Below, piece by piece: positions 19,484 through 35,492 of a DNA stretch of 64,000 nucleotides. The translations under genes were made by a program, and so were the position numbers. Source of the stretch: Nocardia sp. BMG111209 (GTDB taxonomy: Bacteria; Actinomycetota; Actinomycetes; Mycobacteriales; Mycobacteriaceae); contig NZ_KB907310.1 in NCBI RefSeq assembly GCF_000381925.1, positions 124,001 through 188,000 of the forward strand, in the 5' to 3' direction. Every line of letters begins with the position of its first letter. Positions within the stretch are counted from its first letter, which is position 1. The notes beneath the pieces are model-generated. The model did not search any database, was not told where the DNA came from, and saw only the letters and a program-made list of their open reading frames with translations.

Positions 19484-22402
19484 GTGATCAGGATGTCCAA
19501 CATCAAGCGCGTGTTCAGGATCACGCCGAGCGTGCGATTTCGCGTTCTGGCGATTGCCCTCATACCCAGCTCGTCGCTGCTGATTGTCGGTGGTGGCACG
19601 GCCGGATACTTCTTACAGCAGGCCAACTCCATTCAGACCTGGTCGACCGCGATCAACCATACGGCCGGGCCGGCAATGGACTTCGTGGAAGCGGTGCAGA
19701 ACGAGCGCCGCACCAGCATGCTCATACTCGCGGGCGATCAATCCGTGGCCGGTGATCTACCGGCGGAACGGGCGCGGCTCAATGCGTCCATTCCGACGAT
19801 GATGGCCGCCGGTAACGATCTGATCAAACTTTTCCACGGGTCCGTCGGCGATGCCGTCGTGCAAATGCAGGCCACGTTCGGCCAGTTGCCGTTGATCCGG
19901 CAGCGAGTCGATCTGGGCGCGGCCCAGATCGATGAGGTCTACGGCTACTACAACAAGGTCATCCAAACGGTCATCGTCGCGGGCCGACTGGCCGCGCGCA
20001 CGGCCAAGGTGCCCGAGGCGGCGAACGAACAGGACACCGAGATCGGTTTGTTCGAAACCGCCGAGGCGATGTCCCGGAGCAGTTCGCTCGCCGCGGCCGG
20101 TGCTTTCCACGGCGGTTTCACACCGTCGCAGCAAGAGGAATACAGCAAACTGGTCGGTTTTTATCGATACGAACTCGATAATCGCATCGGCGAATTGACG
20201 CCGGGCGAGATGGCGACTTATCAGGCGCTGGTGTCGAGCCCGGCGTGGATGCAGATGGGCGCCATCGAATCCGGCCTCATCCGCCGGTCGGCCGAACTCG
20301 ACGCGTCCGCGCCGTCCACCGAGTCGGGCGGTCCTTCCTCGGGAGCCGGGGGACCGGGGAGCTCCTCCTCGTCCGGTCCGGGCGGTTCGTCCTCGGGCGC
20401 CGCCGGCCCGGGTGGAACCTCGTCCGGCGCGGGTGGTACCTCGTCCGGTCCCGGTGGATCCTCGTCCGGCACCGCCGGTCCCGGTGGATCCGGCACCGCG
20501 CGTCCGGGTGGTTCCGCGTCGGGTCCCGGCGCCGCCCCGTCGGGCGCCGCCGGTCCGAATGCCGCCGGTCCGGGCACGTCGCAGCCGGGCGTCACCTCGC
20601 CGGGCACGTCGCAGCCCGGCGTGTCCGCCGCCCCCGGCCCCTCCTCGCCGAAGACCTCCTCCCCGCGGACATCGCCCCCCGGAGCCCTGTCGCAGAGCGG
20701 TCCGGGCGCCTCGTCCGGCACCGGGCAGACCGGAACCGGCAACTCGTCCAGCGGGACGTCCTCGAACAGCGCCACGGGCGATACCACCACCACCGAAACC
20801 GGCGACACCCCGCCGATGCCTCCCGCCGCCGAATGGCAGGACGCCGCCGATCAGGTCGGCTCCACGCTGCGCGGTATGTGGAACTCGCATCTGCGCTACG
20901 CCGGTGAGGTCGCCGACAAACAGGGCAGCACGCTGTCCCGGCAGTCCGTCGAGGGCGGTGCGGCCGCCCTGGCGCTGTCGCTGGTCGCCTTCGTCGCTGC
21001 GGCGTACCTGTCGCAGCGCCTGATCGGCCGTCTGCGCCGGCTGCGGGCGGAAACGCTGCAGGTCAGCGAGACCCGGTTGCCGCGGATCATGGATCAGCTC
21101 GGCCGTTCCGAATCCGTCGACCTGGACAAGGAACTGCCCAAACTCGATTTCGGCCGCGACGAGATCGGCCAGGTCGCCGATGCCTTCAATCGCGCGCAGA
21201 CGGCCGCCGTCGCCGCCGCGATCAACGAGGCGCACACCCGGCAGGGTGTCCGCGCGGTCTTCGTCAACATCGCGCACCGCAGCCAGGTCACCATGCACCA
21301 GCTGCTGGGTCAGCTGGAGCGCGCGGAGCATCGGCACGACGATCCGGACACCCTGAAGATGCTGTTCGAATTCGACAACCTCGCCACCCGCGAGCGGCGC
21401 AACGCCGAGAACCTGGTGATCCTGGGCGGCGAACAGCCCGGCCGGCAGTGGCGCAATCCGGTGCCGCTGCACGAGTTGGTGCGCAGCGCGGTCACCGAGA
21501 CAGAGCACTACCCCCGGGTCCACATCGTGCGGTTGCCCGAGGTGCGCATCATCGGCTCGGCCGTGGCCGACCTCATCCACCTGCTGGCCGAACTGATCGA
21601 TAACGCCGCGACCTTCTCGCCGCCGCGAACCCGCGTCGAGATCTCCGGTGATCTGGGCGGCTCGGCGGTGATCGTCGCGATCTCCGATCTGGGCGTCGGC
21701 CTGACCAGGGGTGAGATGGCGCGGTTCAACGAGGCGCTGACCAACCCGCCGGACTTCAACATCGAGGCGCTGTCCACCGATCCGCGACTGGGCCTGTTCG
21801 TGGTCGCGCAGCTGGCGAAGCGGCACGAGGTCGCGGTGCGGCTGACCGAATCCGATTTCGGCGGCATCCGCAGCGTCGTGCGGATCCCCTACAACCTGGT
21901 CTCCGACGAGGCGGTCGACGACGAGTCGCTGCCGCCGAGCGAACTCGGTGAGGGCGCCGAGGACAACCTCGGTGAGCTGCGGCGCTGGTCGCATCGGCTG
22001 GGCGGGCAGCAGCCCGGACTGCCCGCGGCGGAGGAGCCCGCCGAGCCGGCTCCCGTCCCGCTGGTTCCGGAGCCCGAACCGGTCGGCGCGATGGCGTCCT
22101 ACGCCGATCAGGCGCCGCCCGAGTCCTGGGGTGAGGAACCGATCGGCGCCGGCGCGGAGGCGCAGGCGTACGACGGTCCGCCGCTGCCCCAGCGCAGACG
22201 GCAGACCCAGGTGATCCCGCGGCCGCCGGCCCCCGATGTCCATCCCAGTGTCGGCAGGCAGCGGGACCGGCCGACGGGACAGGGACGGCCCACCGACCTG
22301 TGGACCTCGCTACAGGCCGGAACGAAGCTCGGTCGCGCGGGTGTACCCGCCGGGTCTCGGCTCGAGGTGGCGACCGAAGGCGAAGGACAGTGGAATGACT
22401 GA
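19484..22402 (+). CDS. cvnA: Conservon sensor kinase-like protein (CvnA type)
   Basis: 972 residues. The order is: a first membrane span near residues 22-46; an extracellular nitrate/nitrite-sensing-like helical domain to about 270; a Gly/Ser/Pro linker of about 175 residues; a second span near 490-515; a HAMP-like segment; and a histidine-kinase-type ATPase region with LIHLLAELIDNAATFSPP (N-box) and SDLGVGL (G1-like). The C-terminal 170 residues are Pro/Glu-rich. CvnA proteins anchor GTPase-linked complexes in Streptomyces. A GTG at 19484 is used; an ATG at 19493 is equally possible. Its stop overlaps cvnB by eight bases. Confidence 0.92.
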   Translation: MIRMSNIKRVFRITPSVRFRVLAIALIPSSSLLIVGGGTAGYFLQQANSIQTWSTAINHTAGPAMDFVEAVQNERRTSMLILAGDQSVAGDLPAERARLNASIPTMMAAGNDLIKLFHGSVGDAVVQMQATFGQLPLIRQRVDLGAAQIDEVYGYYNKVIQTVIVAGRLAARTAKVPEAANEQDTEIGLFETAEAMSRSSSLAAAGAFHGGFTPSQQEEYSKLVGFYRYELDNRIGELTPGEMATYQALVSSPAWMQMGAIESGLIRRSAELDASAPSTESGGPSSGAGGPGSSSSSGPGGSSSGAAGPGGTSSGAGGTSSGPGGSSSGTAGPGGSGTARPGGSASGPGAAPSGAAGPNAAGPGTSQPGVTSPGTSQPGVSAAPGPSSPKTSSPRTSPPGALSQSGPGASSGTGQTGTGNSSSGTSSNSATGDTTTTETGDTPPMPPAAEWQDAADQVGSTLRGMWNSHLRYAGEVADKQGSTLSRQSVEGGAAALALSLVAFVAAAYLSQRLIGRLRRLRAETLQVSETRLPRIMDQLGRSESVDLDKELPKLDFGRDEIGQVADAFNRAQTAAVAAAINEAHTRQGVRAVFVNIAHRSQVTMHQLLGQLERAEHRHDDPDTLKMLFEFDNLATRERRNAENLVILGGEQPGRQWRNPVPLHELVRSAVTETEHYPRVHIVRLPEVRIIGSAVADLIHLLAELIDNAATFSPPRTRVEISGDLGGSAVIVAISDLGVGLTRGEMARFNEALTNPPDFNIEALSTDPRLGLFVVAQLAKRHEVAVRLTESDFGGIRSVVRIPYNLVSDEAVDDESLPPSELGEGAEDNLGELRRWSHRLGGQQPGLPAAEEPAEPAPVPLVPEPEPVGAMASYADQAPPESWGEEPIGAGAEAQAYDGPPLPQRRRQTQVIPRPPAPDVHPSVGRQRDRPTGQGRPTDLWTSLQAGTKLGRAGVPAGSRLEVATEGEGQWND
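20308..20820 (+). repeat. Gly/Ser/Pro low-complexity linker inside cvnA
   Basis: Coding repeat of short GGSSSG, GPGGTSSG and TSQPGV-type units, predicted disordered, between the sensing domain and the second membrane span. It therefore lies on the outer face of the membrane. Confidence 0.7.
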
Positions 22403-22808: not shown

Positions 22809-23201
22809 ATGGTTCGCGAACGGGACTCCTGGTACGACGACGCAGCCGGTCCGCTGGTCCGGCTGTACGGGTTCACTCGCGGGCGCACCCACGATTCCGC
22901 ACCCGAACTGAGCATGATCACGATCGTGGTCGCGGTGGAGGGCACCGAGGACACCCGCCTGCGCCAAATGGAACACGAGTATCAGCGAATCTTCTCGATC
23001 ACGCGAAAGCCACGGGCGATCGCGGAGATATCTGCCAGACTCGGATTGCCCCTGCGGGTGAGCAGAATTCTGGTCGGTGATCTCATCGCGGACGGTTATC
23101 TGACCATCAGCTCGGACCAGGCGAGGCATGCCGCCGAAAACAACAACCGCGAGACCGCCGATTTGATAAGGGCGATACGTGATGGCCTTCTCAGACTCTG
23201 A
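22809..23201 (+). CDS. cvnC: DUF742 protein (CvnC type)
   Basis: 130 residues of DUF742 type: an N-terminal RDSWYDDAAGPLVRLYGFTRGRT, and a winged-helix-like centre (RKPRAIAEISARLGLPLRVSRILVGDLIADGYL). It is the third member of the conservon. The winged-helix look suggests protein or DNA contact, but no activity is established. Its 3' end overlaps cvnD by 20 bases. Confidence 0.93.
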   Translation: MVRERDSWYDDAAGPLVRLYGFTRGRTHDSAPELSMITIVVAVEGTEDTRLRQMEHEYQRIFSITRKPRAIAEISARLGLPLRVSRILVGDLIADGYLTISSDQARHAAENNNRETADLIRAIRDGLLRL

Positions 23202-23784
23202 CACCATGGCACCGCCGAAGATCACGTCGGCGAAAATCCTCATCGCAGGGGGATTCGGCGTGGGCAAGACGACCATGGTCGGTTCGGTCAGCGAGATCGC
23301 GCCGATGTCCACCGAGGAACTGATCAGCGACAAGAGCGAGGGCGTCGACGATCTGTCCGGTGTGGAGTCGAAGGGGACCACCACGGTCGCACTGGATTTC
23401 GGTCGCATCACGGTGAACCCGAATCTGATCCTCTATTTGTTCGGCACGCCCGGACAGGAACGGTTCTGGTTCTTCTGGGACGAACTCGCGACCGGAGCCC
23501 TCGGCGCGGTCGTCCTCGTCGATGTGCGGCGGCTCGACCAGTCGTTCGCCGCGATCGATTTCTTCGAACAGCGGAACCTGCCGTTCGTGGTGGGGGTCAA
23601 CTACTTCGACGGCGCGCACCGCTATCGCATCGCCGATCTGCGCGCCGCGCTCGATCTCGACGAAGCGGTACCCCTGCGGTATTGCGATGCCCGCAGCCGT
23701 GATTCCAGCAAACGACTGCTCCTCGGCCTCACCGAGCATCTGCTCGATCGGCTCGAGGGCGCCCCCGACGAATCGAAGGTCTGA
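23182..23784 (+). CDS. cvnD: MglA/Ras-like small GTPase (CvnD type)
   Basis: 200 residues. Walker A GGFGVGKTT at residues 23-31, a switch-2-like LFGTPGQERFWFFWD, and VNYFDG at the NKxD position, here lacking the usual lysine as is common in conservon GTPases. It is likely the output switch of the CvnABCD membrane complex. An alternative GTG three bases earlier is in frame. The KAS III-like gene begins 30 bases after its stop, so the conservon and that gene are probably one transcript. Confidence 0.93.
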   Translation: MAFSDSDTMAPPKITSAKILIAGGFGVGKTTMVGSVSEIAPMSTEELISDKSEGVDDLSGVESKGTTTVALDFGRITVNPNLILYLFGTPGQERFWFFWDELATGALGAVVLVDVRRLDQSFAAIDFFEQRNLPFVVGVNYFDGAHRYRIADLRAALDLDEAVPLRYCDARSRDSSKRLLLGLTEHLLDRLEGAPDESKV

Positions 23785-23814: not shown

Positions 23815-24861
23815 ATGATCGACGTGAGCGTCACCGTCAGCCTGGCAGATGTGTCCAGTTACCGTCCCGGAGAACCAGTTCCGGCCGAATACTTCACCCG
23901 TTTCCACGAGACCGGCGACAGCGGCAACGCCGTCATGTTCAATCCGCCCCGATTCCGGCACCACGTCGCGGTGGGCGAGTCCCCGGCCGATATGGCCGAG
24001 CAGGCCATCGCGCCGATGCTGGCCCGGCACGGCGCGGAACTGCTGGACGAGGTCGACATCCTGATCGTGCACACCCAGCTGCCGGAGACCTGGTTCGTCG
24101 GTAACGGCGGCGAGGTCGCCGCCCGGCTCGGCATCGTGCCGGAATGGCTGATCGACCTGCACAACGGTGGTTGCGCCAGTTTCGTCTACGCGGTGAAACT
24201 GGCCCGCGAGATCATGCAGAGCACCCCGGCGAAATCGGCCCTGATCGTGAACATCGCGAATACCGCGGGGCAGTTGTTCGACCAGGATCAGGTGCGGCCG
24301 CTGGCCCAGGCGGCCGTTCCCGGCGACGGCGCGGGCGTCGCCTGGCTGACCAGGTCCGATCATTCCCCGATCCTGGATATCGAGGCCCGGCATCTGCCGC
24401 AGTACGCGGGGGAGATGACGCTGGTCTCCGATCCGCCGCGCCGGCATTGGCAGTCCGGCCCGGGACAGATGCACATCGGATTCACCGAGGCGGGTATCGC
24501 CAAGGTGCTGAACCGCGGCAACGAGATCGTTCCCGAGGTGGCGCGCGCGGTCTGCGGCCGGCTCGAGGTGCCCCCCGGCGACGTGGATCTGCTGGTCACC
24601 AATCAGCCGAACCGGAAATTCCTGGAGAACTGGCGGGATTCGCTGGGGGTGCCCGCGGAGCGCCATCCGGACACCTTCGAGGAATGCGGCAATCTGTTCG
24701 GCGTCGCCATGCCGCTGACCTTCGACCATGCGGTCACCTCCGGGCAGGTGCCGGACGGATCCCTGGTCCTGTTCGCGGGTTTCGCGCATGCCGGAGATTT
24801 CGCCGCCGCGGCGGCGGTGCGATGGAACGGCAGACTATCGCCGCGCGACGGCTCATGCTGA
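23815..24861 (+). CDS. KAS III-like thiolase-fold enzyme
   Basis: 348 residues of the 3-oxoacyl-ACP synthase III fold. The active-site cysteine is residue 120 in DLHNGGCASFVYAVKLA, and VPGDGAGVAWL follows. The usual catalytic histidine position reads VTNQPNRKF (Asn263 where FabH has His), and the last catalytic asparagine is kept (ECGNLFG, Asn293). Loss of the histidine suggests an acyltransferase or a non-decarboxylating condensation rather than fatty-acid initiation. A GTG at 23824 is an alternative start. It lies 30 bases after cvnD and overlaps the aminotransferase gene by seven. Confidence 0.88.
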   Translation: MIDVSVTVSLADVSSYRPGEPVPAEYFTRFHETGDSGNAVMFNPPRFRHHVAVGESPADMAEQAIAPMLARHGAELLDEVDILIVHTQLPETWFVGNGGEVAARLGIVPEWLIDLHNGGCASFVYAVKLAREIMQSTPAKSALIVNIANTAGQLFDQDQVRPLAQAAVPGDGAGVAWLTRSDHSPILDIEARHLPQYAGEMTLVSDPPRRHWQSGPGQMHIGFTEAGIAKVLNRGNEIVPEVARAVCGRLEVPPGDVDLLVTNQPNRKFLENWRDSLGVPAERHPDTFEECGNLFGVAMPLTFDHAVTSGQVPDGSLVLFAGFAHAGDFAAAAAVRWNGRLSPRDGSC

Positions 24862-25892
24862 TCGCGCACGATTCTGTCCGTTTTCGGCTCGAACTCAACG
24901 AGAACCCTTACGGCCCACTGCCTTCCGTGCACCGGGCACTGACCGAGGCGCTCGCCTCGGCGAATCGCTATCCGGAATTCCTGCCGCACCGGCTGCCGCA
25001 GCTCATCGCGAGCCGAATCGGTTTCCCGCCCGAGCAGATCGTGGTCGGCGCCGGCGCCACCGGCGTGATCCTGCACATCCTGCAGGCGTTCGTCACGTCG
25101 ATGGGGTACGCGGGGGAGGGCTCCGGTGCGACCGGGGTGGTGCTGGCGGGGCCGACCTTCGACGGCTATCCGCTGCTGACCGAGACGGTCGGCGGGCGGC
25201 CGGTGATCGTGCCGTTGCTGCCCGGCGGATCGCAGGATCTGGCGGCGATGGCGGCCTCGGTCGACGACCGGACCGGCGTCGTCGTGGTGTGCAATCCGCA
25301 CAATCCGACCGGCACCCGCCTCCATCAACACGAGCTGACGGAATTCCTCGATCTGATCGATACCCGGATCGTGGTGATACTCGACGAGGCCTATATCGAA
25401 TTCGCGCCGTCGGATCAGCGCATCGATACCGCGGCCCTGCTGGCGACCTATCCGAATGTGGTCGTGGTGCGCACCTTCTCGAAGGCCTTCGGGCTGGCGG
25501 GCCTGCGGGTGGGATATGCCGTCGCCGCACCACAACTCGCCGCGCGAATCGCACACTGGCAGGTGCCCTACGGAATCAACAATCTCGCCGAGATCGCCGT
25601 GCACGCCTGTTATGCGGCGGAGGCGGAATTGAACGAGCGAATCCGTGCCATCACCGGCGAACGTGATCGGCTCTCGGCCGCGCTCCGGCGATTCGGATAC
25701 GACGTGCCCGACAGTTCGGCGAATCACGTCTTTCTCCCGTTGCGCGATATCGGGCACGCCCGCCGGGTCACGGACGCATTCGATCGCGCGGAGATCCGGG
25801 TCAAGAGCTATCCGACGGGTATGCGGATCACCGTGGGAGACACCGCCGCCAACGACGCGGTGATCACCAGCCTGGCGGGCGTCGGGGGCTGA
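24855..25892 (+). CDS. HisC-like class I/II aminotransferase
   Basis: 345 residues, PLP fold type I. ELNENPYGPLP near the N-terminus, CNPHNPTGT at 146-154, DEAYIEF, the PLP lysine at residue 210 in RTFSKAFGLAGLRVGY, and a C-terminal arginine in YPTGMRITVG. It resembles histidinol-phosphate aminotransferase, but it sits away from his genes and next to a KAS III-like gene, so it more likely acts on another amino or keto substrate in a local pathway. The ATG at 24855 overlaps the upstream stop; an earlier ATG at 24822 is possible. Confidence 0.9.
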   Translation: MLIAHDSVRFRLELNENPYGPLPSVHRALTEALASANRYPEFLPHRLPQLIASRIGFPPEQIVVGAGATGVILHILQAFVTSMGYAGEGSGATGVVLAGPTFDGYPLLTETVGGRPVIVPLLPGGSQDLAAMAASVDDRTGVVVVCNPHNPTGTRLHQHELTEFLDLIDTRIVVILDEAYIEFAPSDQRIDTAALLATYPNVVVVRTFSKAFGLAGLRVGYAVAAPQLAARIAHWQVPYGINNLAEIAVHACYAAEAELNERIRAITGERDRLSAALRRFGYDVPDSSANHVFLPLRDIGHARRVTDAFDRAEIRVKSYPTGMRITVGDTAANDAVITSLAGVGG

Positions 25893-25903
25893 GCCCGCCG
25901 TGG

Positions 25904-27553
25904 TCACGCACCGTCGGTGAGGAACGGTACGAACGGCGGGACCTCGTCGGGATCGCAGTCGACGGCCACGAATCGGGGACCGGAACCGGAATCCGCCAGT
26001 GCGGCAGGGAGTTCCGCGATATCGCGCACCGCGTGACACGGCAGCCCCGGAAACATCGCGGCCATCCCCTCGGCGAGCCTGGACTGCTGGAATCGGTTGC
26101 GGCCGTCGACATTCCGGCAGTACAGCCGCTCCCGCACCACGCACATGGCATGCGAGTTGTTGTTCAGGACGACGAACGTGATCGGCAGGGCGTGCTCGAT
26201 CGCGGTGTGTAACTCCATGCCGTGCATGAAGAACGAGCCGTCACCCGCGATGACGTAGGTCGGCCGCCGGGTCGCGAACACCGAGCCGATCGCGGCGCCG
26301 AAACTGTAGCCCATCCCGCCCATGCCCAGCGCGAGGCCGAACCGGCCGTCCGCGGGCAGTTCGAGATGGTGCACCGCCGCGGCGCCGGTATTGCCCGCGT
26401 CCGCGAAAACCGCACTGCCCGTGGGCAGAAACTCCGAGATCGCCGCCATGACCTCGCGGTAGCGCAGTCCCGGACCGGTCGTGCCGGGCGTCCGCAACCG
26501 GCCCGGGTCGATGGGATGCTCAGCGGAAGCGACTGTGCCACCGGCACTTTCCCGTACGGCGGCGGTGAGCAGCGGCAGCGCGGCGGCCAGATCCGCGGCG
26601 GTGGCGTGCACGGCGGGCCGATACGGCGGCAGCGCGCCGATACCGGCCAGCGGAATATCGCCGAGCGGTATCTGCGCGGTCGCCGGCAGTCGCGTGCCGA
26701 CCAGTAGGCACAGCGCCGCCGAGCCGGCCGCCCGCACCAGTTCCGGATGCCCCATCGTGCCCGCGACCCCGGCGAATCCGGGATCGCGCGGGCCGTGGAC
26801 GTCCTTCGCGTCGGGTGTCACCCCGACCACGGCGTCCAGCGCCACCACCAGATCGCGCAATGCGCCACGGGCATCGTCGCGGGCCACCTGATCACCGGCG
26901 ATCACCAGGATCTTGCCGGTCGACCGCGCCGCGACCAGCGCCGCGGCCACCGCGGCGATCCCGGGCGAATCCACCGCGGGCGGCGCCGGAACCGAGCGCG
27001 TCGGCCGCGCCGCGAGCGGCGTGCGCTGCACATCCTTCGGCAGCAACAGCACCGCCGGCCCGCCGCCGCGCGCGGCCTCGACCGCGGCGGTGAACTGTTC
27101 CGGCAGATCCTCCGCGCGCCGCACCCGCGCGCAGTACCGCGACACCGTGCCGAACAGCCGCGCCGCATCGATACTGCCGGCCCGGCCGCTGGTGTCCTGG
27201 AACGCGCCGAGTCCCTCCTGGCTGCGTGGCGGCTGCCCCACCAGGGCCAGCACCGGTACCTGCGAGGTGAACGATTCCGCCAGTCCGGCAACGAGATTCA
27301 TCGCGCCGCCGCCGGAGGTCGCGACCACCACGCCGAGGCCGCCGGTGGCGCGAGCGTACCCGTCGGCCATCGTCGCGGCGGCGAATTCGTGTTTGGCCAC
27401 CACACCCAGCACCCCGGCTCCGCCGTCGGCGACCGGCCGGGCCGCCGCATCGTAGACGTCCTCGATATTCGCGCCGTCCACCCCGAAGAAGTGCCGGACC
27501 CCCGCTTCGGCACAGGCCTGCACCAGGTACTCGGCCACCCGCCAGTCTTCCAT
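25904..27553 (-). CDS. Thiamine-diphosphate-dependent enzyme (acetolactate synthase/decarboxylase superfamily)
   Basis: 549 residues from the ATG at 27553. The three-domain ThDP fold shows the catalytic glutamate (residue 56, VVAKHEFAAATMADGYARATGG), a glycine-rich ATSGGGAMNLVAGL loop, and the ThDP-binding motif beginning AGDGSFFMHGMELHTAIEH and ending VVLNNN around 435-465. No acetolactate-synthase regulatory subunit is nearby. It probably decarboxylates or ligates a 2-keto acid. The gene ends 11 bases from the end of the convergent aminotransferase gene and lies 215 bases downstream of the SRPBCC gene on the same strand. Confidence 0.9.
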   Translation of the reverse strand: MEDWRVAEYLVQACAEAGVRHFFGVDGANIEDVYDAAARPVADGGAGVLGVVAKHEFAAATMADGYARATGGLGVVVATSGGGAMNLVAGLAESFTSQVPVLALVGQPPRSQEGLGAFQDTSGRAGSIDAARLFGTVSRYCARVRRAEDLPEQFTAAVEAARGGGPAVLLLPKDVQRTPLAARPTRSVPAPPAVDSPGIAAVAAALVAARSTGKILVIAGDQVARDDARGALRDLVVALDAVVGVTPDAKDVHGPRDPGFAGVAGTMGHPELVRAAGSAALCLLVGTRLPATAQIPLGDIPLAGIGALPPYRPAVHATAADLAAALPLLTAAVRESAGGTVASAEHPIDPGRLRTPGTTGPGLRYREVMAAISEFLPTGSAVFADAGNTGAAAVHHLELPADGRFGLALGMGGMGYSFGAAIGSVFATRRPTYVIAGDGSFFMHGMELHTAIEHALPITFVVLNNNSHAMCVVRERLYCRNVDGRNRFQQSRLAEGMAAMFPGLPCHAVRDIAELPAALADSGSGPRFVAVDCDPDEVPPFVPFLTDGA

Positions 27554-27768
27554 ACCCGTATCCGACCATCTCCGGGTCGACGATTCAAGTACCGGAGGCA
27601 TCGAAAGTCGAAACGCGCCCGATGTTTTCGCGAGCGGCCGGTGAAGTTCCGGTATACCGCAAAGAAATACGGCGGTGCCGATCGAAATCGTCACCGCCGC
27701 AGTGATTTACCCGGGTTTCCGGTAGGGGCCTCCCGGTCCGTCTCGCCCTGCCGGAACCCGAAGCGCGA

Positions 27769-28413
27769 TCAGTCCCGGAGCAGATGCGGGCCGACCGGCA
27801 GGTCGTTGTGGTGCCGGTGTTCGAGAATGGCCTTGAGGTTGTTCAACTCCATGGTGTGACCCGCGCCGAATATGCCCCACATGTCGCCCACCCACTGCGG
27901 GCGGTTGGCCGGAGCCGTTTCGGGATAAGGGTTCTCGTTGTAGTAGGGATGCCGGCAGTTGGTCCACGTGATCACCGAGCCGGGCCGCTTGAGGACCAGC
28001 TCGGCCGGGACCACGCGCATCAGGTAGACCATCCAGAGATCGTTGCCCTGGTCCCAGGCGCAGTGGTAGTCGACGGTCAGCGCCTCGGCGTTGGCGACGA
28101 CCTTCATGAAGATCTTGGTATCGATGCCGAGCGTGTCGAGCCCCCGATAGACGCCGGGCAGCTCGGTCGGCTCGAAATCCCGAGTGCTGTAAGTCCATTC
28201 GGAGAGACTGTGGATATTCGAGAGGTACTCGAACGCGGCCTGCGGCGGGCAATCGACGTAACCCTGCACGGTGCAGTACTCGCCGTACACATCGTCGTAC
28301 GAATAGGCGGGTTTGGTGAGCTCCGCCGCGCGCACCATCACCTCGCCGACATCGACCTGTTCTCCTCGCACCAAACCGGGAATGTCGGCGAGCTGTTTTT
28401 CATCGATCCGCAT
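27769..28413 (-). CDS. SRPBCC/START-like ligand-binding protein
   Basis: 214 residues with the helix-grip pattern of polyketide cyclase/SRPBCC proteins: GYVDCPPQAAFEYLSNIHSL, SEWTYSTRDFEPTE, then alternating beta strands with WTNCRHPYYNENP. Such proteins bind hydrophobic ligands or catalyse cyclisation or dehydration. It lies between a 33-codon ORF upstream and the ThDP enzyme downstream on the same strand, so a role in the same small pathway is inferred. There is no signal peptide. Confidence 0.8.
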   Translation of the reverse strand: MRIDEKQLADIPGLVRGEQVDVGEVMVRAAELTKPAYSYDDVYGEYCTVQGYVDCPPQAAFEYLSNIHSLSEWTYSTRDFEPTELPGVYRGLDTLGIDTKIFMKVVANAEALTVDYHCAWDQGNDLWMVYLMRVVPAELVLKRPGSVITWTNCRHPYYNENPYPETAPANRPQWVGDMWGIFGAGHTMELNNLKAILEHRHHNDLPVGPHLLRD

Positions 28414-28539
28414 GAAATCCCAGCCTACGCGGACGCCGAGAAGTGCGGAACCCCAATGATTCTCGCCGTTACGGCATACCTACGCCGGCGCCCGGCCGGA
28501 CCCGCACCGGGCGCCGCGTCACCGGCGTGCACGAATCGC

Positions 28540-28641
28540 TCAGTTCCTGCCGTCGCTGTCGCCGCCGTCGCCGGTCGGGAATTCGTTCCAGTTCTCGTTG
28601 TTCGACTGGCCGTTGGGGCCGGGGCCGAGGAGCCGAGTCAT
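28540..28641 (-). CDS. 33-codon ORF with a near-perfect Shine-Dalgarno: candidate precursor or signal peptide
   Basis: The ATG at 28641 is preceded by GAAAGGAGGTGA, which pairs along its whole length with the 3' end of 16S rRNA, with seven bases after GGAGG. The peptide starts MTRLLGPGPNGQSNNENW and ends in an Asp/Gly-rich tail. It is polar, rich in Asn, Gly and Asp, has no cysteine, and contains one Trp and one Phe. It lies 126 bases upstream of the SRPBCC gene on the same strand, and the ThDP gene follows that. The strength of the site suggests heavy expression. It could be a ribosomal peptide precursor or a small structural peptide; no class is recognised. Confidence 0.65.
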   Translation of the reverse strand: MTRLLGPGPNGQSNNENWNEFPTGDGGDSDGRN

Positions 28642-28702
28642 GGGGTCACCTCCTTTCGTGCTCGATGTGCCATTCGTCGGTGCGGGGGTCGTGGATGGGC
28701 CG

Positions 28703-28730
28703 TTGTCACCACCCGGCAACGCGGTATTGT
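28703..28730 (+). promoter_or_regulatory. Putative promoter for the ABM-domain gene
   Basis: TTGTCA (28703-28708) and TATTGT (28725-28730), 16 bases apart, in the divergent region between the 33-codon ORF and the gene at 28808. Confidence 0.4.
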
Positions 28731-28807
28731 CCGCGCGCGGACGAGGGAGGACGCTGAAGGTACCGGCGGCGCGGCCGGGCGCTGCCCCGAGCCACAAGGG
28801 GTGTGAC

Positions 28808-29431
28808 GTGTTCGCACGTGCTACGACCATCGAGGCGCAACTGTCGGCGATCGACGCCGGTATCGCCTATGTGCGGGACGAGGTACTGCCCGTGGTGACC
28901 GAAATTCCCGGGTGTATCGGGCTGTCACTGCTGGTGGACCGCCAGTCGGGGCGGTGCATCGCGACCACCGCGTGGGAATCCGAGCGGGCCATGCGCGAGA
29001 GCGAGGGGGAGGTCGGCGTGATCCGCGACCGGGCCTCCTACGAGGTGTTCCGGGGCCGCGCGCGGATCGAGGAGTGGGAGATCGCGGTGATGCACCGGGA
29101 CCACCGTTCCCGGCCGGGGGCCTGGGTGCGGGTGGCGTGGGGCCGGGTCGATCCGGCGCGGATGGACGCCACCGTCGCCAACTACAGCCACCGGGCGATT
29201 CCGGCGATCCAGCAACTGGAGGGGTTCTGCAGCGCGAGTCTGCTGGTCGACCGGGCCGCGGGCCGCGGGGTGTCGACGGAGACGTTCGACAGCTCCCTTG
29301 CGATGGAACGCACCCGTCAGGTGTCCGACGCCATGCGCGACGACAACACCATGGAGACCGGGGTCGAGGTCCTGGATATCGGTGAATTCGAGTTGGCGCT
29401 GGCGCACCTGCGGGTTCCGGAGCTGATCTGA
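28808..29431 (+). CDS. Tandem dimeric alpha-beta barrel (ABM-like) protein
   Basis: 207 residues from a GTG with AAGGGG upstream. It is two similar ferredoxin-like ABM units: residues about 5-95 (VLPVVTEIPGCIGLSLLVDR, TAWESERAMRESE) and about 105-200 (AIPAIQQLEGFCSASLLVDR, ETFDSSLAMERTR). Single ABM domains dimerise in cofactor-free monooxygenases and haem-degrading enzymes; here one chain holds both halves. It is divergent from the 33-codon ORF operon, with about 165 bases between starts, which suggests shared control. Confidence 0.78.
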   Translation: MFARATTIEAQLSAIDAGIAYVRDEVLPVVTEIPGCIGLSLLVDRQSGRCIATTAWESERAMRESEGEVGVIRDRASYEVFRGRARIEEWEIAVMHRDHRSRPGAWVRVAWGRVDPARMDATVANYSHRAIPAIQQLEGFCSASLLVDRAAGRGVSTETFDSSLAMERTRQVSDAMRDDNTMETGVEVLDIGEFELALAHLRVPELI

Positions 29432-29798: not shown

Positions 29799-30686
29799 TC
29801 AGCTGATCGTTTGCCGGGCCGCCGGTGCGGTCACCGCGTGCAGGGCGGCGCGGGCGGCGGCGACGGCGGGGTGGGAGCCGGTGCCGGAGCGGTAGGCGAG
29901 GCGGGTGCGGCGGCGGATCGGCAGCGGGGTGAGGGTCACCGGGGCGGGGACCGTGGTGGCGCCCAGTTCGGGGACGAAGGCGACGCCCTGTCCGGCGGCC
30001 ACCAGCGCCAGGACGGTGCCGAAGTCGTCGGTGTGATGGCGGATGCGGGGGGTGAAGCCGGCGGCCTCGCAGGCGCGGATCGTGACGAGGTGGCAGAGGG
30101 TGCCGGGCGTCCCCGCGATCCAGGGCGAGTCGCGATGCGCGGCGACCTCGGTGGCCGTCGGGGCGGCCAGGTAGACCACCTCCTCGAGCAGCGGATCCGA
30201 GTCCAGACCGGTCTCGGGACCGCGCGGGACGTAGTCGTACTCCTGGACCAGGGCGAGATCCAGGGTCTCGGCGCGCAGCGCGGCGGGGGTGTCGGCCGGA
30301 TCCACCTCCGTGACCAGCAGTTCCAGCCGCGGATGGTCCCGGCTCAGCGCCACCAGCGCGGGCGCGACGATGGTGTGCGCCGCGGTGGCGAAGGCGCCGA
30401 TGCGCAGCGTCCCCGCGAGTTCGCCACGGCCGCTGGACAATTCGGCCTCGGCCTGTTCCAGCACCGCGAGCACCGTCTCGGTGTGTTCCACCAGGCGCAG
30501 CGCCGCGGGGGTGAGGGCGACGCTGCGGCCGGTGCGTTCCAGCAGCGGCACGCCGGCCTCCCGTTCCAGCGCGGTGAGCTGCTGGGAGACCGCGGACGGG
30601 GTGTAGGTGAGGGCCTCGGCCACCGCGGCGATGGTGCCGCGGTGGGCCAGTTCGCGGAGCAGGCGTAACCGCCGCACATCGAGCAT
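29799..30686 (-). CDS. LysR-family transcriptional regulator
   Basis: 295 residues. Residues 1-60 form the winged helix-turn-helix (MLDVRRLRLLRELAHRGTIA, AEALTYTPSAVSQQLTALER); residues about 90-290 form the effector-binding domain. It is transcribed divergently from the DapA-like gene with 70 bases between starts, the usual arrangement for a LysR regulator and its target. Confidence 0.93.
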   Translation of the reverse strand: MLDVRRLRLLRELAHRGTIAAVAEALTYTPSAVSQQLTALEREAGVPLLERTGRSVALTPAALRLVEHTETVLAVLEQAEAELSSGRGELAGTLRIGAFATAAHTIVAPALVALSRDHPRLELLVTEVDPADTPAALRAETLDLALVQEYDYVPRGPETGLDSDPLLEEVVYLAAPTATEVAAHRDSPWIAGTPGTLCHLVTIRACEAAGFTPRIRHHTDDFGTVLALVAAGQGVAFVPELGATTVPAPVTLTPLPIRRRTRLAYRSGTGSHPAVAAARAALHAVTAPAARQTIS

Positions 30687-30756
30687 CAGAACATCTTATG
30701 CTCGAATGCAGAAAGCCGTAATTGACCTACCGATTCCGGGGTCGCAGGCTGGGTCC

Positions 30757-31707
30757 ATGAGTTTCACGGGTTTGTATGTTCCGCTGATCACGCCGTTCAC
30801 GGCCGCGGACGAGGTCGACAGCGCGGCGCTGGCCCGGCTGGCACACGAGGCGCTCGACGCCGGGGCGGCCGGCCTGGTCGCGCTCGGCACCACCGGCGAA
30901 CCCGTGACGCTGACCGCCGCGGAACGGCAACGGGTACTCGACGTCTGCGCCGATATCTGCCGGGAGCGCGGGGTGCCGCTGATCGTCGGCGCGGGGTCGA
31001 ACGGCACCGCCGATTCGGCCCGCGATCTGGCCGCCGTGGATCCGCGCGCGGCCGCGGTGCTCAGCGTGGTGCCGTACTACCTGCGGCCGTCGGAGGAGGG
31101 GGTGGTCGCGCACTTCCGGCAGCTGGCCGCCGCGAGCCCCGTCCCGCTGGTGGTGTACCACATCCCGTATCGCACCGGCCGCGCACTGAGCGCCGAAACC
31201 CTGTGCCGGATAGCCGAATTGCCGAACGTCGCCGGATTCAAACTGGCCGCCGGCGGCATCGACGAGACCGTGATCGCCTTCCTGAGCCGGGCCACCGGCA
31301 CCGACATCCTGGCCGGCGACGATCTGTACACCGCGCCGCTGCTGGCCCTGGGCGCCGCCGGCGCGATCCTGGCCTGCGCCAACGTCGCCCCGGCCGAGTA
31401 CGCCGAACTCGTCGCCGCCTGGCGCGCCGGTGAACTCGAGCGGGGCCGCGTCCTCGGCAACCGGCTGGTCCCGCTGGCACAGGCGCTGTTCGCCGAACCG
31501 AATCCCGTGGTGCTCAAGGCAGTACTGGCCGCGCAGGGCCGGATCGCGACCCCCGCGGTCCGGTTGCCGCTGCTACCGGCCACCGAAACCGCCACCGCCG
31601 CAGCACTTTCCGCTCTCACGCAGCTCGGCCCGGCCGTTCCGGTTCGGAGCGTGCCGAGTGCGGAGCCCAGCGGTTCCACAGCGCGGCAGACCGTTCCGAT
31701 CCAATAG
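30757..31707 (+). CDS. DapA-family (DHDPS/NAL) lyase
   Basis: 316 residues from the ATG at 30757. TIM-barrel motifs: LYVPLITPF, ALGTTGEPVTLTAAER (phosphate/carboxylate loop), Tyr134 in LVVYHIPYRTGR and the Schiff-base Lys162 in NVAGFKLAAGG. It could be a 4-hydroxy-tetrahydrodipicolinate synthase paralogue or another pyruvate-dependent aldolase. Location away from dap genes and control by an adjacent LysR protein favour a catabolic or accessory aldolase. The last 30 residues are a variable tail. Confidence 0.88.
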   Translation: MSFTGLYVPLITPFTAADEVDSAALARLAHEALDAGAAGLVALGTTGEPVTLTAAERQRVLDVCADICRERGVPLIVGAGSNGTADSARDLAAVDPRAAAVLSVVPYYLRPSEEGVVAHFRQLAAASPVPLVVYHIPYRTGRALSAETLCRIAELPNVAGFKLAAGGIDETVIAFLSRATGTDILAGDDLYTAPLLALGAAGAILACANVAPAEYAELVAAWRAGELERGRVLGNRLVPLAQALFAEPNPVVLKAVLAAQGRIATPAVRLPLLPATETATAAALSALTQLGPAVPVRSVPSAEPSGSTARQTVPIQ

Positions 31708-31798
31708 GTGTGCCGTCCGCGCACCTGCCCGATCCGGACCGGCAGACAGCTCGCCGTCCGGCCCATCCGGACCCGTGCAGACGGGCCCATCCGGCCCG

Positions 31799-31963
31799 GT
31801 GCGAACAGCTCGCCGTCCGGCCCCGTGCGAACGGCTCGCCGCTCGGCCCGTGCGAACGGCCCCGTGCGAACAGCTCGCCGCGCGGCCCGGTGCGACCAGC
31901 TCGCCGCGCGGCCCCGTGCGAACAGCTCGCCGCCCGGCCCCGCGCGAACGGCCCGCCGTCCGG
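31799..31963. repeat. 26-bp tandem repeat (minisatellite)
   Basis: Unit GTGCGAACAGCTCGCCG followed by three variable bases and GGCCCC. Copies start at 31799, 31825, 31864, 31890, 31916 and 31942, with one truncated 14-base copy at 31850; weaker relatives extend back to about 31740. A 26-base period is not a multiple of three, so the array is not a coding repeat. It fills the 333-base gap between the DapA-like gene and the convergent reductase gene. Confidence 0.85.
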
Positions 31964-32040
31964 ATGCGACGGTTGCCGGTCGAGTGGAGGCGCGTGCTCG
32001 AACCTCGAGCCGTGCACCGGAACCCGCTGTGCGACAACGG

Positions 32041-32658
32041 TTACCGGTCGGCCTTCAGCGCCGTGAACGCCGCCGCCCAGTCCGGCATCGCCGGACCGTC
32101 GTACAGCTCGAAGGTGGTGCCGTGCGCCTCGGGCCGCAGCAGCGCCTCGACACTCGCTCGCGCGACCGTGTCGCGGCTCACCCGGCCGTCGCCGCGATCG
32201 CCCTGTTCCAGCCGGGCGCCGGTACCGGGGGAGTCGGTGAGCCAGCCCGGCCGCACGACGGCATAGGGCGTACCGCTGTCCCGCAGCGCCTGTTCACCGG
32301 CGGCCCGCGCCTCGATGATGTCCGCCAGATCGGGATGTTCGGCGGCGCGGGTGATGTAGATCTGGGAGACGAGCACCACCGGAACCCGCTGTGCCGCAGC
32401 AAGTTCGGCGAGCCGGGCGATGCCGTGATGCATGACCGCGACGGCCCCGGCCGAATCGGTGGGCGGCTCGACCGAGGCGATCACGCCATCGATGTCGCGC
32501 AGCAGATCCGGGGCGAGGTCGCGGGCCAGATCGACCGTCACCGTGCGGGGCCCGCGGGGACGGCGGCTGCCGACCAGCACGTCGTGGCCGTCCGCGGTCA
32601 GCAACTCCACCGCCCGCCGACCGGTGCGACCGGTCCCACCGACAACCAGGATGGACAC
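32041..32658 (-). CDS. NAD(P)-binding atypical SDR (NmrA-like)
   Basis: 205 residues. The N-terminal ILVVGGTGRTGRRAVELL is a GGTGxxG dinucleotide-binding motif; VLVGSRRPRGPRTV suggests NADP preference. The SDR tyrosine-lysine pair is not evident, as in NmrA-like sensors and NAD(P)H quinone-reductase-like proteins. VPVVLVSQIYITR and PYAVVRPGWLTDSPG fit the family. Substrate unknown. It stands 51 bases downstream of the SDR gene on the same strand and may be co-transcribed. Confidence 0.85.
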   Translation of the reverse strand: MSILVVGGTGRTGRRAVELLTADGHDVLVGSRRPRGPRTVTVDLARDLAPDLLRDIDGVIASVEPPTDSAGAVAVMHHGIARLAELAAAQRVPVVLVSQIYITRAAEHPDLADIIEARAAGEQALRDSGTPYAVVRPGWLTDSPGTGARLEQGDRGDGRVSRDTVARASVEALLRPEAHGTTFELYDGPAMPDWAAAFTALKADR

Positions 32659-32709
32659 GAGAACTCCTTCACCTCGGAACAGCGCACATTATCGATCGTG
32701 GCCGGGCAT

Positions 32710-33393
32710 TCACCAGGGCAGGGGACGGCCGTCGCGGAAGAAGCCACCGGTGGGCCCCGAATCGGGCAGCGTGGCCGCCCACACCACCCCCGCCGCACCC
32801 TCGGCGACCGGCCGCCCGCCGGGTCCACCCATCTCCGTGGCGACCCAGCCGGGGCATACCGAGTTCACCAGGATCCGATCGCCGCGCAGTTCCCCGGCGA
32901 GCATCCGGGTCAGCGCGTTCAGGCCGACCTTGGACGCGGTGTAGGCGGGGGTGCCGCCACCCATCTCGGTCAGCGAGGCCGCCTCGCTGGACACGTTGAC
33001 GATCCGTGGATGCGCGCTGCGCCGCAGCAGCGGCAGGAATGCCTGCACCATCCGCCACGGGCCGTAGAGATTCGTCTCGGCGGCCTCCCGCACCACCGCG
33101 AGATCCGCGGTCGCGGCCCGCTGCCAGGTGTCGTAATCGATCGCGGCGTTGTTGATCAGTACGTCCAGCCGGCCGTGGGTGTCGGCCACGGTCGCGGCGG
33201 CCGCGGCGATCCCGTCCGGATCCGTGACATCGAGTCGCAGGGGCACCGCACCCACCTGCTCGGCGGCGGCCGTGGCGGCCTCGGTCGAGCGGGCGGTCAG
33301 CAGCACGGTGTGCCCGTGCCGCACCAGCTGCGCACACACCTCCAGGCCGATCCCGCGATTGCCGCCGGTGACCAACGCGATGCTCTCGTTCAT
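32710..33393 (-). CDS. Short-chain dehydrogenase/reductase
   Basis: 227 residues from the ATG at 33393. Classical SDR: TGGNRGIG cofactor motif, LINNAAI, the catalytic Ser in VNVSSEAAS, and Tyr/Lys in YTASKVGLNAL. The substrate is not predictable. It is divergent from a LysR-type gene (60 bases between starts) and is its likely target. A longer frame upstream would overlap that promoter and is rejected. Confidence 0.92.
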   Translation of the reverse strand: MNESIALVTGGNRGIGLEVCAQLVRHGHTVLLTARSTEAATAAAEQVGAVPLRLDVTDPDGIAAAAATVADTHGRLDVLINNAAIDYDTWQRAATADLAVVREAAETNLYGPWRMVQAFLPLLRRSAHPRIVNVSSEAASLTEMGGGTPAYTASKVGLNALTRMLAGELRGDRILVNSVCPGWVATEMGGPGGRPVAEGAAGVVWAATLPDSGPTGGFFRDGRPLPW

Positions 33394-33440
33394 GCCTCGA
33401 TCCTCGCCGCCGGACCGGATGCCGTCCAAGATCTTTCGTG

Positions 33441-33455
33441 ATAACCAGGAGTTAT
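33441..33455. promoter_or_regulatory. LysR-type box overlapping the regulator's own start
   Basis: ATAACCAGGAGTTAT is a perfect inverted repeat (5-bp arms) that contains the T-N11-A LysR pattern. It covers the AGGAG ribosome binding site and the start codon of the LysR gene at 33454 and lies in the short divergent region with the SDR gene. A second palindrome, AAGATCTT, is at 33428-33435. Confidence 0.5.
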
Positions 33456-34335
33456 GGATGCGCATCTGCGCGATCTGCGGTACTTCGCGACGGTCGCCGA
33501 CGAGCTCAGCTTCACCCGGGCGGCGGAGCGACTGTACGTGTCGCAGCCCGCGCTGAGCAAACAGATCCGGCGGCTGGAGACCGATCTGCGGGTGCCGCTG
33601 TTCGAGCGGGACGGCCGCGGCGTCCGGCTGACCGCCGCCGGTGCGGCATTACTCCCCGCGGCGCGAAATCTGTTGCGCGACTGGGCAGAAGCGCAACGCG
33701 TGGTCAGCGATGCGGCGGCCGCGGCCGCCTCGGTGCTGACCGTCGGCGTCTCGACCAGTGTCGGCCGCGGCTTGTTCCAGCGTGCCCGGGACCTGTTCGC
33801 CGAGCGCCGGCCCGGCTGGCGGCTGGCGATCCGGCAGATCGACTGGGACGACCCCAGCGCCGGGCTCGCCGGTGGCGACACCGATGTGTCCCTGGTGTGG
33901 TTGCCGATCCCGGACCGGCGCCGCTACGGCGTGCGGGTCGTGGCCACGGAGCCGCGCTGGGTCGCCTTCCGCGACGACCATCGGCTGGCCGGACGCGATC
34001 GGGTGGATTTCGCCGAATTGCTCGGGGAGCCGTTGCTGGCCCTGCCCGAGGATTCCGGTCCGCTGCGCGAGTACTGGCTCGGCGAGCCGGATCGGGCGGG
34101 TGCGCCGGTGCGGATCGGCGCGGTGGTCGCCAATGCCGACGAGACATTCGCCGCGATCGAGGACGGTAGCGGGATCGTCCTGCTCGCGGAGGGTAACGCC
34201 GCCATCTACCACCGTCCCGGCATCCGGGCGGTCCCGGTGGACGGCTTGTCACCGGCCGAGCTGGCCGTCATCTGGAATCGCGCTGATCATCGGCCCGCGG
34301 TCCGGGATTTCGTCGACGCCGTCACGCCGCCGTAG
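33454..34335 (+). CDS. LysR-family transcriptional regulator
   Basis: 293 residues. The helix-turn-helix is at residues 1-60 (LRDLRYFATVADELSFTRAA, LYVSQPALSKQIRRLETDL), followed by an effector-binding domain (VLTVGVSTSVGRGLFQRA onward). It is divergent from the SDR gene and probably controls it and itself through the box at 33441-33455. Confidence 0.93.
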   Translation: MDAHLRDLRYFATVADELSFTRAAERLYVSQPALSKQIRRLETDLRVPLFERDGRGVRLTAAGAALLPAARNLLRDWAEAQRVVSDAAAAAASVLTVGVSTSVGRGLFQRARDLFAERRPGWRLAIRQIDWDDPSAGLAGGDTDVSLVWLPIPDRRRYGVRVVATEPRWVAFRDDHRLAGRDRVDFAELLGEPLLALPEDSGPLREYWLGEPDRAGAPVRIGAVVANADETFAAIEDGSGIVLLAEGNAAIYHRPGIRAVPVDGLSPAELAVIWNRADHRPAVRDFVDAVTPP

Positions 34336-34406
34336 CGCTCGGGAGGGCTGCCGAAGCGAGTTGTGTTGCGGGATCACCGCGACCGGTCAGCGGCCGACGA
34401 TCGCGG

Positions 34407-34610
34407 TCAATGATCGGGGTCCGAGTCGCCGTCGCGGCGGGGGCGCGAGATGCGCCAGAGAAAATCGGGGTCGTCGTCCGGGCCGATGATCCGGTTGCGC
34501 CGCGAAGGGGCCCGGCCGGCATTGATGCGGCGCGCGCGTTCCGGTCCGAATGCTTTCCAGCACAGCACCGCGACTGCTACGACCGCGATGAGTGCCAACA
34601 GGTACGTCAC
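34407..34610 (-). CDS. Small single-span membrane protein (67 aa)
   Basis: The GTG at 34610 is preceded by AAGGAGG at eight bases; an in-frame GTG at 34619 lies inside that site and is rejected. The N-terminal helix YLLALIAVVAVAVLCWKAF is followed by a basic, then acidic, cytoplasmic tail (RRINAGRAPSRRNRI, GPDDDPDF). No family is recognised. It lies downstream of bldC on the same strand. Confidence 0.7.
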   Translation of the reverse strand: MTYLLALIAVVAVAVLCWKAFGPERARRINAGRAPSRRNRIIGPDDDPDFLWRISRPRRDGDSDPDH

Positions 34611-34680
34611 GTCACTCACCTCCTTGCATCGAGGGTAATGCGTGTGCGTACCCGTGGCACCGCCAACATCGAAATAAGGG

Positions 34681-34920
34681 CTATGACCTGGTCGCTTCGG
34701 TGGTCAGCGACTTCAACAGCTGCATTACCTCGGACTCCCGGAAACGGCGGTGGCCGCCCGGCGTGCGCAGCGAGCCCAGCCTTCCGGCGTGTGCCCAACG
34801 GGTGACGGTCTTCGGATCGACATGGAACAGCGCCGCCACCTGGCCCGGGGTCAAGAGGGCCTCCTGGCCGGAGACGGAGACGGAACCCAAAGTGCGGCTC
34901 GCCGCGGTGATCGCAGTCAT
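34681..34920 (-). CDS. bldC: BldC-like MerR-type DNA-binding protein
   Basis: 79 residues: a single winged-helix MerR DNA-binding domain, LLTPGQVAALFHVDPKTVTRWAHAGRLGSLRTPGGHRRF, without the coiled-coil or effector part, as in Streptomyces BldC, which binds cooperatively to direct repeats and controls development. The start at 34920 precedes a short Ala/Ser-rich arm. The 233-base region upstream is AT-rich for this genome and contains an inverted repeat (35019-35055). Confidence 0.9.
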   Translation of the reverse strand: MTAITAASRTLGSVSVSGQEALLTPGQVAALFHVDPKTVTRWAHAGRLGSLRTPGGHRRFRESEVMQLLKSLTTEATRS

Positions 34921-35018
34921 TCGCAAACCTTTCCGTAATCGACAGTCCCTCATCAGATAGCGACATCGTTGCACCGATACCCCCAGGTGTTCGAACGATC
35001 TAACGTTGGTAAAGGGGG

Positions 35019-35055
35019 AGTAATAGACAAATCGGATATACGTACGGCTATTACT
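35019..35055. promoter_or_regulatory. AT-rich control region with inverted repeat upstream of bldC
   Basis: AGTAATAG (35019-35026) and CTATTACT (35048-35055) are perfect 8-bp inverted arms about 21 bases apart, in the AT-rich stretch between the divergent bldC and DUF4229 genes. Their position suggests an operator or looped site for bldC transcription. Confidence 0.4.
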
Positions 35056-35153
35056 GTGCAACGTTCTCCGGCCCAGCTAAATTCCAGCGAACAGGCCGTC
35101 GCGGGGCACCGGGCCGGGCGGTCCCGGCGCGGGCCGTCGCCTAGGCTGGTCAC

Positions 35154-35492
35154 GTGAGTGATGCATCCCGACCCGAGGACGCCGCTGCCGACCGGGCCAC
35201 GGCGTCGGCGGGCCGGCGGCTGGCGCGCAACCTGGCGCTGTACACGGTGGCCCGGTTGCTGCTGGTGGCCGCGATAGCCGCCCTCATCGAGGGTGTCGGT
35301 CGTTTGCTGAAGGTGGACGTCCCGCTGATCGTGGCCCTGCTGTTCGCGGTCCTCGTCGCGCTGCCGGTCTCGATGGTGGCCTTCAAGCGCCTGCGGACCA
35401 ACGTCAACGAGAGCATCACGGCGGTCGACGAGAAGCGCCGCACCGACAAGGCCCAGCTGCGCGCACGCCTGCGCGGCGAGGAGCACGGGTGA
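35154..35492 (+). CDS. DUF4229 membrane protein
   Basis: 112 residues. Two adjacent hydrophobic helices ([21 protein letters not shown] and [22 protein letters not shown]) are followed by a charged helical tail ([15 protein letters not shown]), the DUF4229 layout. The GTG start is at 35154. The stop overlaps the Cds1-like start (GTGA), so the two proteins are made together. In Mycobacterium a DUF4229-type gene also neighbours cds1, as I recall. Confidence 0.85.

Follow-up and report, generated by a model that had tools for sequence, protein, structure and literature searches.

A stretch of 64,000 nucleotides from Nocardia sp. BMG111209 (G000:C4:124001-188000, within a genome of 9.14 Mb; we call the whole stretch the window) contains four clustered enzyme genes and, beside them, a 33-codon open reading frame (ORF). 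It is likely that these are two separate things that are adjacent: a carbazole-synthase-type cassette and a stand-alone small-protein gene. The cassette encodes an enzyme similar to β-ketoacyl-acyl carrier protein synthase III (KAS III), an aromatic aminotransferase, a thiamine diphosphate (ThDP)-dependent carboligase, and an SRPBCC protein. It appears to be a distant cousin of the bacterial pathway for carbazole alkaloids, perhaps making an oily antioxidant. A model that saw only the letters and their translations (the sequence-only reading) had placed all five genes at the coordinates that we give below, and had described them as a candidate undescribed locus. The enzyme set is not an unknown one: the four enzymes match the carbazole core set CqsB1/CqsB7/CqsB3/CqsB2.

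The SRPBCC protein is homologous to carbazole synthase

The SRPBCC protein (27769..28413, minus strand) has no Pfam match. It is homologous to the solved carbazole synthase CqsB2 (6ipv), with E = 2.8e-45 and 41% identity over the aligned part. Five catalytic residues have been proposed for CqsB2, and we took their roles from part of a carbazole review (PMC7466098). The equivalents of four of them (Tyr144, Tyr172, His206, and Glu209) are kept in the window's protein and in all 37 of the SRPBCC sequences in our residue survey (a survey in which two rows were extended through a stop), and the fifth, Glu105, is aspartate in all 37. The protein also matches the scytonemin cyclase ScyC weakly (E = 1.6e-5; score 24 versus a cut-off of 400). 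Phosphonate and daptide-like readings were also considered and were dropped after the CqsB2 match.

The KAS III-like enzyme, in the position of CqsB1, is encoded at 23815..24861 on the plus strand (PF08541, E = 1.6e-19; PF08545, E = 9.9e-10). Its gene is overlapped by the gene for a HisC/Pat-type aromatic aminotransferase (24822..25892, also plus strand; PF00155, E = 3.4e-44), in the position of CqsB7 and NzsD. The ThDP-dependent carboligase, in the position of CqsB3 and NzsH, is encoded on the minus strand at 25904..27553 (PF02776, PF00205, and PF02775) and starts with MEDWRV. The facing aminotransferase and ThDP genes have their stops at 25892 and 25904, which is the gap of 11 bases that the sequence-only reading had reported. 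The nearest solved ThDP enzymes are CsmA and BbmA, and we found no paper that names them as enzymes of this kind.

The four enzymes occur together

The sequence-only reading had tentatively joined the genes on both strands into one small-molecule pathway, and comparative genomics bears this out. The genome contains a second copy (L009), in which the ThDP, SRPBCC, KAS III-like, and aminotransferase genes follow one another on one strand. Furthermore, among 37 loci that were selected by their SRPBCC gene (27 from Nocardia and 10 from others), the ThDP and KAS III-like genes were both present in all 37 and the aminotransferase gene in 32 (it was undetected at L177-L179, L181, and L184). All four genes were present in 27 of 27 Nocardia loci. 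At these loci the gene pairs do not occur independently, which favours the link between the strands. Because the paralogue is collinear and the gene set is kept across loci, we conclude that the four enzymes belong to one pathway.

Homologues of all four products are also present at five CqsB2-type loci (L217-L221), from which the window's enzymes and their relatives are separated, by sequence comparison, as a clade of their own. In KAS III enzymes such as FabH, we take the histidine of the Cys-His-Asn set to be a catalytic residue. The window's enzyme has Cys120, Asn293, and, where FabH has histidine, Asn263 (in NQPN). In all 37 sequences the cysteine and the asparagine are kept and the histidine position is asparagine. 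The histidine is kept (THQPN) in five of five CqsB2-type loci, and asparagine is found at six window-like loci of the same genus, which is that of genome G703 and probably Streptomyces. A CqsB2 search of that genus matched 36 of 392 genomes: 5 at 69-98% identity and the other 31, including G703, at 41-49%.

Phylogenetic trees suggest a further complication. We distinguish Nocardia loci of types A (which includes the window), B, and C. In FastTree analyses, the type-A KAS III-like proteins group with Nocardia type C (support 0.81) and the type-A aminotransferases group with all of type C (0.997), while the type-A ThDP enzymes group with type B (0.67; 0.96 with one more locus). FastTree does not resolve the placement of the SRPBCC protein (0.12), which by IQ-TREE joins one Streptomyces-like sequence (96/96). 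Because the KAS III/aminotransferase and ThDP trees group differently, the facing pairs may have different ancestries even though the four functions have remained linked, the supports being mixed. At another locus, L173 (G163:C132:13150), the matches to the cassette are split into several pieces, and this copy has probably decayed.

Comparison with known pathways and a proposed course

According to part of a carbazole review (PMC7466098), CqsB7 makes indole-3-pyruvate, CqsB3 joins pyruvate to it, CqsB1 condenses the product with an acyl-ACP (ACP is short for acyl carrier protein), and CqsB2 then closes and aromatises ring A. Excerpts of two other papers give indole-3-pyruvate and pyruvate as the substrates of NzsH (PMC9822442) and describe a chlorinated-carbazole cluster with a HisC-like aminotransferase, a ThDP enzyme, a KAS III, an ACP, and an SRPBCC protein (PMC10100901). 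The keto-acid chemistry, acylation, and cyclisation that the sequence-only reading had proposed all take place in this closest characterised pathway.

The window has the same four kinds of clustered enzymes as the carquinostatin and neocarazostatin clusters (CqsB1, B2, B3, and B7; NzsJ, I, H, and D). It differs in the substitutions at the KAS III histidine (to asparagine) and at Glu105 of the SRPBCC protein (to aspartate), in having conservon genes and an antibiotic biosynthesis monooxygenase (ABM) gene, and in its 25-45% identity to the CqsB2-type loci. In the scytonemin pathway, a ThDP enzyme likewise carries out the carboligation of an aromatic keto acid and cyclisation (by ScyC) follows; the ScyC match is far under the cut-off. 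A ThDP-derived intermediate of scytonemin is mentioned in the part of PMC9822442 that we used.

We propose the following course. The aminotransferase would convert tryptophan, or less probably another aromatic amino acid, to its 2-keto acid. The KAS III-like enzyme would condense the preceding intermediate with an acyl thioester, probably derived from fatty-acid synthesis because neither a dedicated ACP nor a second KAS III was found next to the cassette. The SRPBCC protein would then fold and aromatise the unstable product to give a carbazole or a similar ring system bearing an alkyl chain, so the predicted product is acylated and carbazole-type. The ABM monooxygenase, which was found at only some type-A loci (the subtype of the window), may take ring oxidation on in the direction of a quinone, and regulation of the locus may fall to the conservon.

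Distribution and a probable connection to Tsukamurella

We found matches to the SRPBCC protein in 124 of 150 Nocardia genomes, in 102 of 301 genomes of the family (16 of 31 genera), and in 19 of 396 genomes of the phylum. Five other Nocardia carry close relatives that are of the window type (73-88% identity). Among the sampled genomes, the cassette is commoner than the CqsB2-type loci.

One genus (g5), with 15 genomes that have an SRPBCC match, is probably Tsukamurella: among named proteins, the one nearest to its SRPBCC protein comes from Tsukamurella sp. 8F (81% identity). In three of three g5 loci that we opened (L177-L179), ThDP, SRPBCC, and KAS III-like genes of the window's clade are present. 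Antioxidative lipocarbazoles have reportedly been obtained from Tsukamurella pseudospumae (we know of this from a title in reference lists). If g5 is Tsukamurella, then an acyl-chain carbazole is a natural guess for the product of the cassette. The likeness is at the level of the compound class, and no aminotransferase was detected beside the three genes. (The lipocarbazole class is also mentioned in part of the review PMC7466098.) In the same three loci, a gene with a flavodoxin domain lies directly before the ThDP gene (L177:10594-11154, with Pfam run on L177).

A regulator of the SigL/RslA type accompanies some relatives

At L182, a sigma factor matches SigL of Mycobacterium tuberculosis (E = 4.6e-63) and an anti-sigma factor matches the RslA chain of the SigL-RslA structure (E = 5e-17). 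Relatives of these genes lie within the fetched stretch at 17 of 37 loci, namely all 14 Nocardia loci of type B together with L182, L183, and L185, and in the latter three they are immediately before the ThDP gene on the same strand. Oxidised RslA has an 8-fold lower affinity for SigL (from part of PMC2877774). The association fits the idea that some relatives make an antioxidant; it is uninformative for the window's copy or for Tsukamurella. The second cassette of the window's own genome (L009:7600-13000) is also close to SigL/RslA-type genes.

Weighing the carbazole reading

The cassette might instead use phenylpyruvate or 4-hydroxyphenylpyruvate, with the SRPBCC protein building a ring other than carbazole, and although we think this somewhat improbable, we take it seriously. 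The best solved match of the aminotransferase is a phenylalanine aminotransferase (E = 8.5e-55), but the aminotransferase of L218, a CqsB2-type locus, is 45% identical to the window's (compared to 38% for the SRPBCC protein, 35% for the ThDP enzyme, and 25% for the KAS III-like enzyme), so the type of aminotransferase alone does not indicate phenylalanine. Similarly, the two active-site substitutions set the clade apart and its ThDP enzyme is only 33-36% identical to those of the CqsB2-type loci, yet four of the five carbazole-synthase residues are kept, and the probable Tsukamurella loci belong to the window's clade. We prefer the carbazole-type product.

Several observations weigh against this preference. 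The asparagine in place of the canonical KAS III histidine throughout the clade means that the condensation may differ, and the divergence from the characterised enzymes is deep, with the KAS III-like enzyme at 25-28% identity to the CqsB2-type loci and the ThDP enzyme at the low level just given. No dedicated KAS III and ACP (CqsB5/B6) and no prenyltransferase were found beside the cassette, with Pfam run on part of the window's genes and not on the rest of the genome: nine flanking genes include no ACP, KAS III, or prenyltransferase. (For comparison, L218 by eye has another KAS III besides CqsB1, an ACP-like gene, and a gene that resembles squalene/phytoene synthases; PF00494 matches the last of these in L217.) For g5, the assignment depends on a single named neighbour, and three matches are closer (83-95%). 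The three probable Tsukamurella loci lack not only a detected aminotransferase but also the SigL/RslA pair, relatives of which were likewise not found in six of six type-A loci (including the window), seven of seven type-C loci, two of two g4 loci, L181, or L184. Finally, in the open-access literature we found no carbazole work on Nocardia and no report of this gene set there.

The 33-codon ORF belongs to a separate family

The ORF (28540..28641, minus strand) encodes MTRLLGPGPNGQSNNENWNEFPTGDGGDSDGRN. Its Shine-Dalgarno sequence GAAAGGAGGTGA (28646..28657, minus strand) pairs over 12 bases with the anti-Shine-Dalgarno GGATCACCTCCTTTCT found in the same genome, as expected from the sequence-only reading, which had called the pairing complete. 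N. aurantia has the same peptide (33 of 33 residues), and Nocardia sp. alder85J has one that matches at 29 of 33. At the DNA level, all 99 coding bases agree with those of N. aurantia (L040:9204-9305), although the SRPBCC protein there is 88% identical; this pattern suggests either that exchange was recent or that more than the protein is under constraint. Conservation in relatives and the full Shine-Dalgarno make a chance ORF very unlikely, and on this comparative evidence we conclude that it is a genuine gene.

The sequence-only reading had also raised the possibility that the ORF supplies a ribosomal precursor for modification by these enzymes. Its conservation beside the same genes in N. 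aurantia and alder85J and its full Shine-Dalgarno are in keeping with this, but we consider it improbable in the extreme, as the enzyme set is fully explained without a peptide. Furthermore, when we looked for the peptide motif where the cassette is conserved, it was present at just 3 of 47 loci; the 44 loci that lack it include 5 of the CqsB2 type, and of the 6 closest orthologous loci, 3 are without it.

Instead, the peptide is a member of a Nocardia small-protein family with a PGP[N/D]G...NWN motif. Members have the motif after a strong Shine-Dalgarno and are 28-39 residues long (13 aligned). At least 15 of 150 Nocardia genomes carry the family (weaker matches were opened only in part), and in 3 of these it lies beside the SRPBCC gene; G108, with two copies, gave no match to the SRPBCC protein. 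Among the named carriers are N. brasiliensis, N. uniformis, N. otitidiscaviarum, and N. asiatica, and the family loci are L045-L058, L065, L075:7426-7533, and part of L105-L134. A pattern scan of contigs gave 27 stretches, of which 14 had the short ORF, all from Nocardia; the other 13 were dropped by eye, most being out of frame. A few, such as L121, L122, L124, and L129, were dropped because the in-frame match lay in a different reading-frame context or in a longer protein. In the viral collection, we kept four of five contigs as family carriers and dropped L132. We called genes at 21 family loci that lie elsewhere than at the cassette, some of them in the same genome or in closely related ones. 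By clustering, 11 of the 21 have neighbours of the XRE or DUF6879 type, with the Pfam names taken from L081, and small resolvase-like or winged-helix-like genes, labelled by eye, lie upstream of family members. The peptide matched no family in Pfam or NCBIfam. An alignment search at the level of the order, which scored at most 19 candidates per genome, gave matches in 14 of 397 genomes at E ≤ 0.1, of which only the window's own was strong (the next best was 0.0033).

A terminator-like hairpin (28482..28521, minus strand; from folding) separates the ORF from the SRPBCC gene, and it is in the same place in L040 and L041. Across the family, a downstream hairpin with a dG of -23 or lower was found for 17 of 24 members (no shuffle control), so it is frequent and not universal. 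For 12 of 21 members, at most 2 of 200 shuffles reached the uninterrupted stem; for the window, 8 of 200 did. Across the three loci, the uninterrupted stem is mostly beyond shuffles (8, 1, and 1 of 200). A leader-peptide attenuator that senses the charging of tryptophan or phenylalanine tRNA for the SRPBCC and ThDP genes might be expected to look like this, as the ORF has one tryptophan and one phenylalanine codon and the hairpin precedes the SRPBCC gene. However, a single tryptophan codon is few, the layout of ORF and hairpin recurs at loci without these enzymes, and the distance from the ORF to the SRPBCC gene varies (126, about 297, or about 354 bases), so an attenuator is very improbable. 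The distance between the starts of the ORF and the ABM gene is steadier, at about 170-195 bases, and blocks of this intergenic region (28642-28811) are conserved in all three species, as if it were a shared divergent regulatory region.

Because the ORF is rare at cassette loci, is separated by a hairpin, and has a family that is mostly at enzyme-free loci, it is probably not a substrate of the pathway and belongs to a separate small-protein family. The family is often at virus-like and XRE/DUF6879 loci. Our guess is that the stand-alone gene encodes a small regulatory protein. Three points count against this separation. The motif scan would miss a strongly diverged peptide at the other loci; the ORF is found at this position in three species, two of which share its exact DNA sequence, so it could have a role in the pathway; and the energy of the hairpin is not beyond that of shuffles (39, 24, and 14 of 200 fold as well).

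Implications

A carbazole-type product would give a testable product class to a gene set whose SRPBCC marker is widespread in Nocardia and its family, and would make the cassette a candidate pathway for the lipocarbazoles. Some relatives may place the production of an aromatic antioxidant under a redox switch of the SigL/RslA type. The comparison also exposes a KAS III-like clade in which asparagine replaces the usual catalytic histidine and a Nocardia small-protein family that lacks a Pfam or NCBIfam model. A broader picture, which we find rather doubtful as a whole, is that the Mycobacteriales have a widespread and unrecognised pathway for acylated carbazole-type antioxidant lipids, which uses this altered KAS III and is switched on in several genera by SigL, a sigma factor released by redox change. 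The window would then be a derived form of two ancestries (with the KAS III-like enzyme and aminotransferase near one Nocardia type and the ThDP enzyme near another) beside a conservon, to which an ABM enzyme that forms a quinone and a small protein of the mobile-element type had been added.

Neighbouring genes

Upstream of the KAS III-like gene, and on the same strand, are consecutive genes for a sensor-kinase-like protein (19484..22402; NIT, HAMP, and HATPase_c domains by Pfam), a DUF742 protein (22809..23201; PF05331, E = 4.6e-25), and a small GTPase (23179..23784; PF03029, E = 8.7e-31), whose end is 30 bases from the KAS III-like start. As in actinobacterial conservons, these genes are consecutive; the difference is that the window's row then runs into a biosynthetic pair. 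Three of the four members of a conservon (kinase, roadblock, DUF742, GTPase) were identified, and the roadblock gene is outside the set scanned with Pfam. Conservon-type genes adjoin the KAS III-like gene in all six type-A loci, and relatives of the sensor-kinase-like gene are near it in all six.

The ABM-type monooxygenase gene (28811..29431, plus strand) diverges from the ORF, as the sequence-only reading had it. Its start is most likely the GTG at 28811 and not the TTG at 28598, because its two relatives begin there (VFAR...). The tandem repeat of the sequence-only reading is plausible from the length of the protein, but PF03992 matches the first half only (E = 2.3e-7) and a second copy was undetected. 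Relatives of this gene lie beside the peptide in L040 and L041 and were not found in the other three type-A loci. L042 (7966-8598), L043, and L044 have a hemerythrin-like gene (Pfam on L042) between the conservon and the SRPBCC gene, and the ORF and the ABM gene were not found there.

An Rfam scan of the window gave no match. Past the ABM gene (29799-36574) lie genes for a LysR protein, a dihydrodipicolinate synthase (DHDPS)-family protein, an NAD-binding protein, a short-chain dehydrogenase, a second LysR protein, and a pyridoxal phosphate (PLP) enzyme. At L223 (6507-7601), a DJ-1/AraC-type regulator gene precedes the ThDP gene, and L224 and L225 have genes of similar size there.

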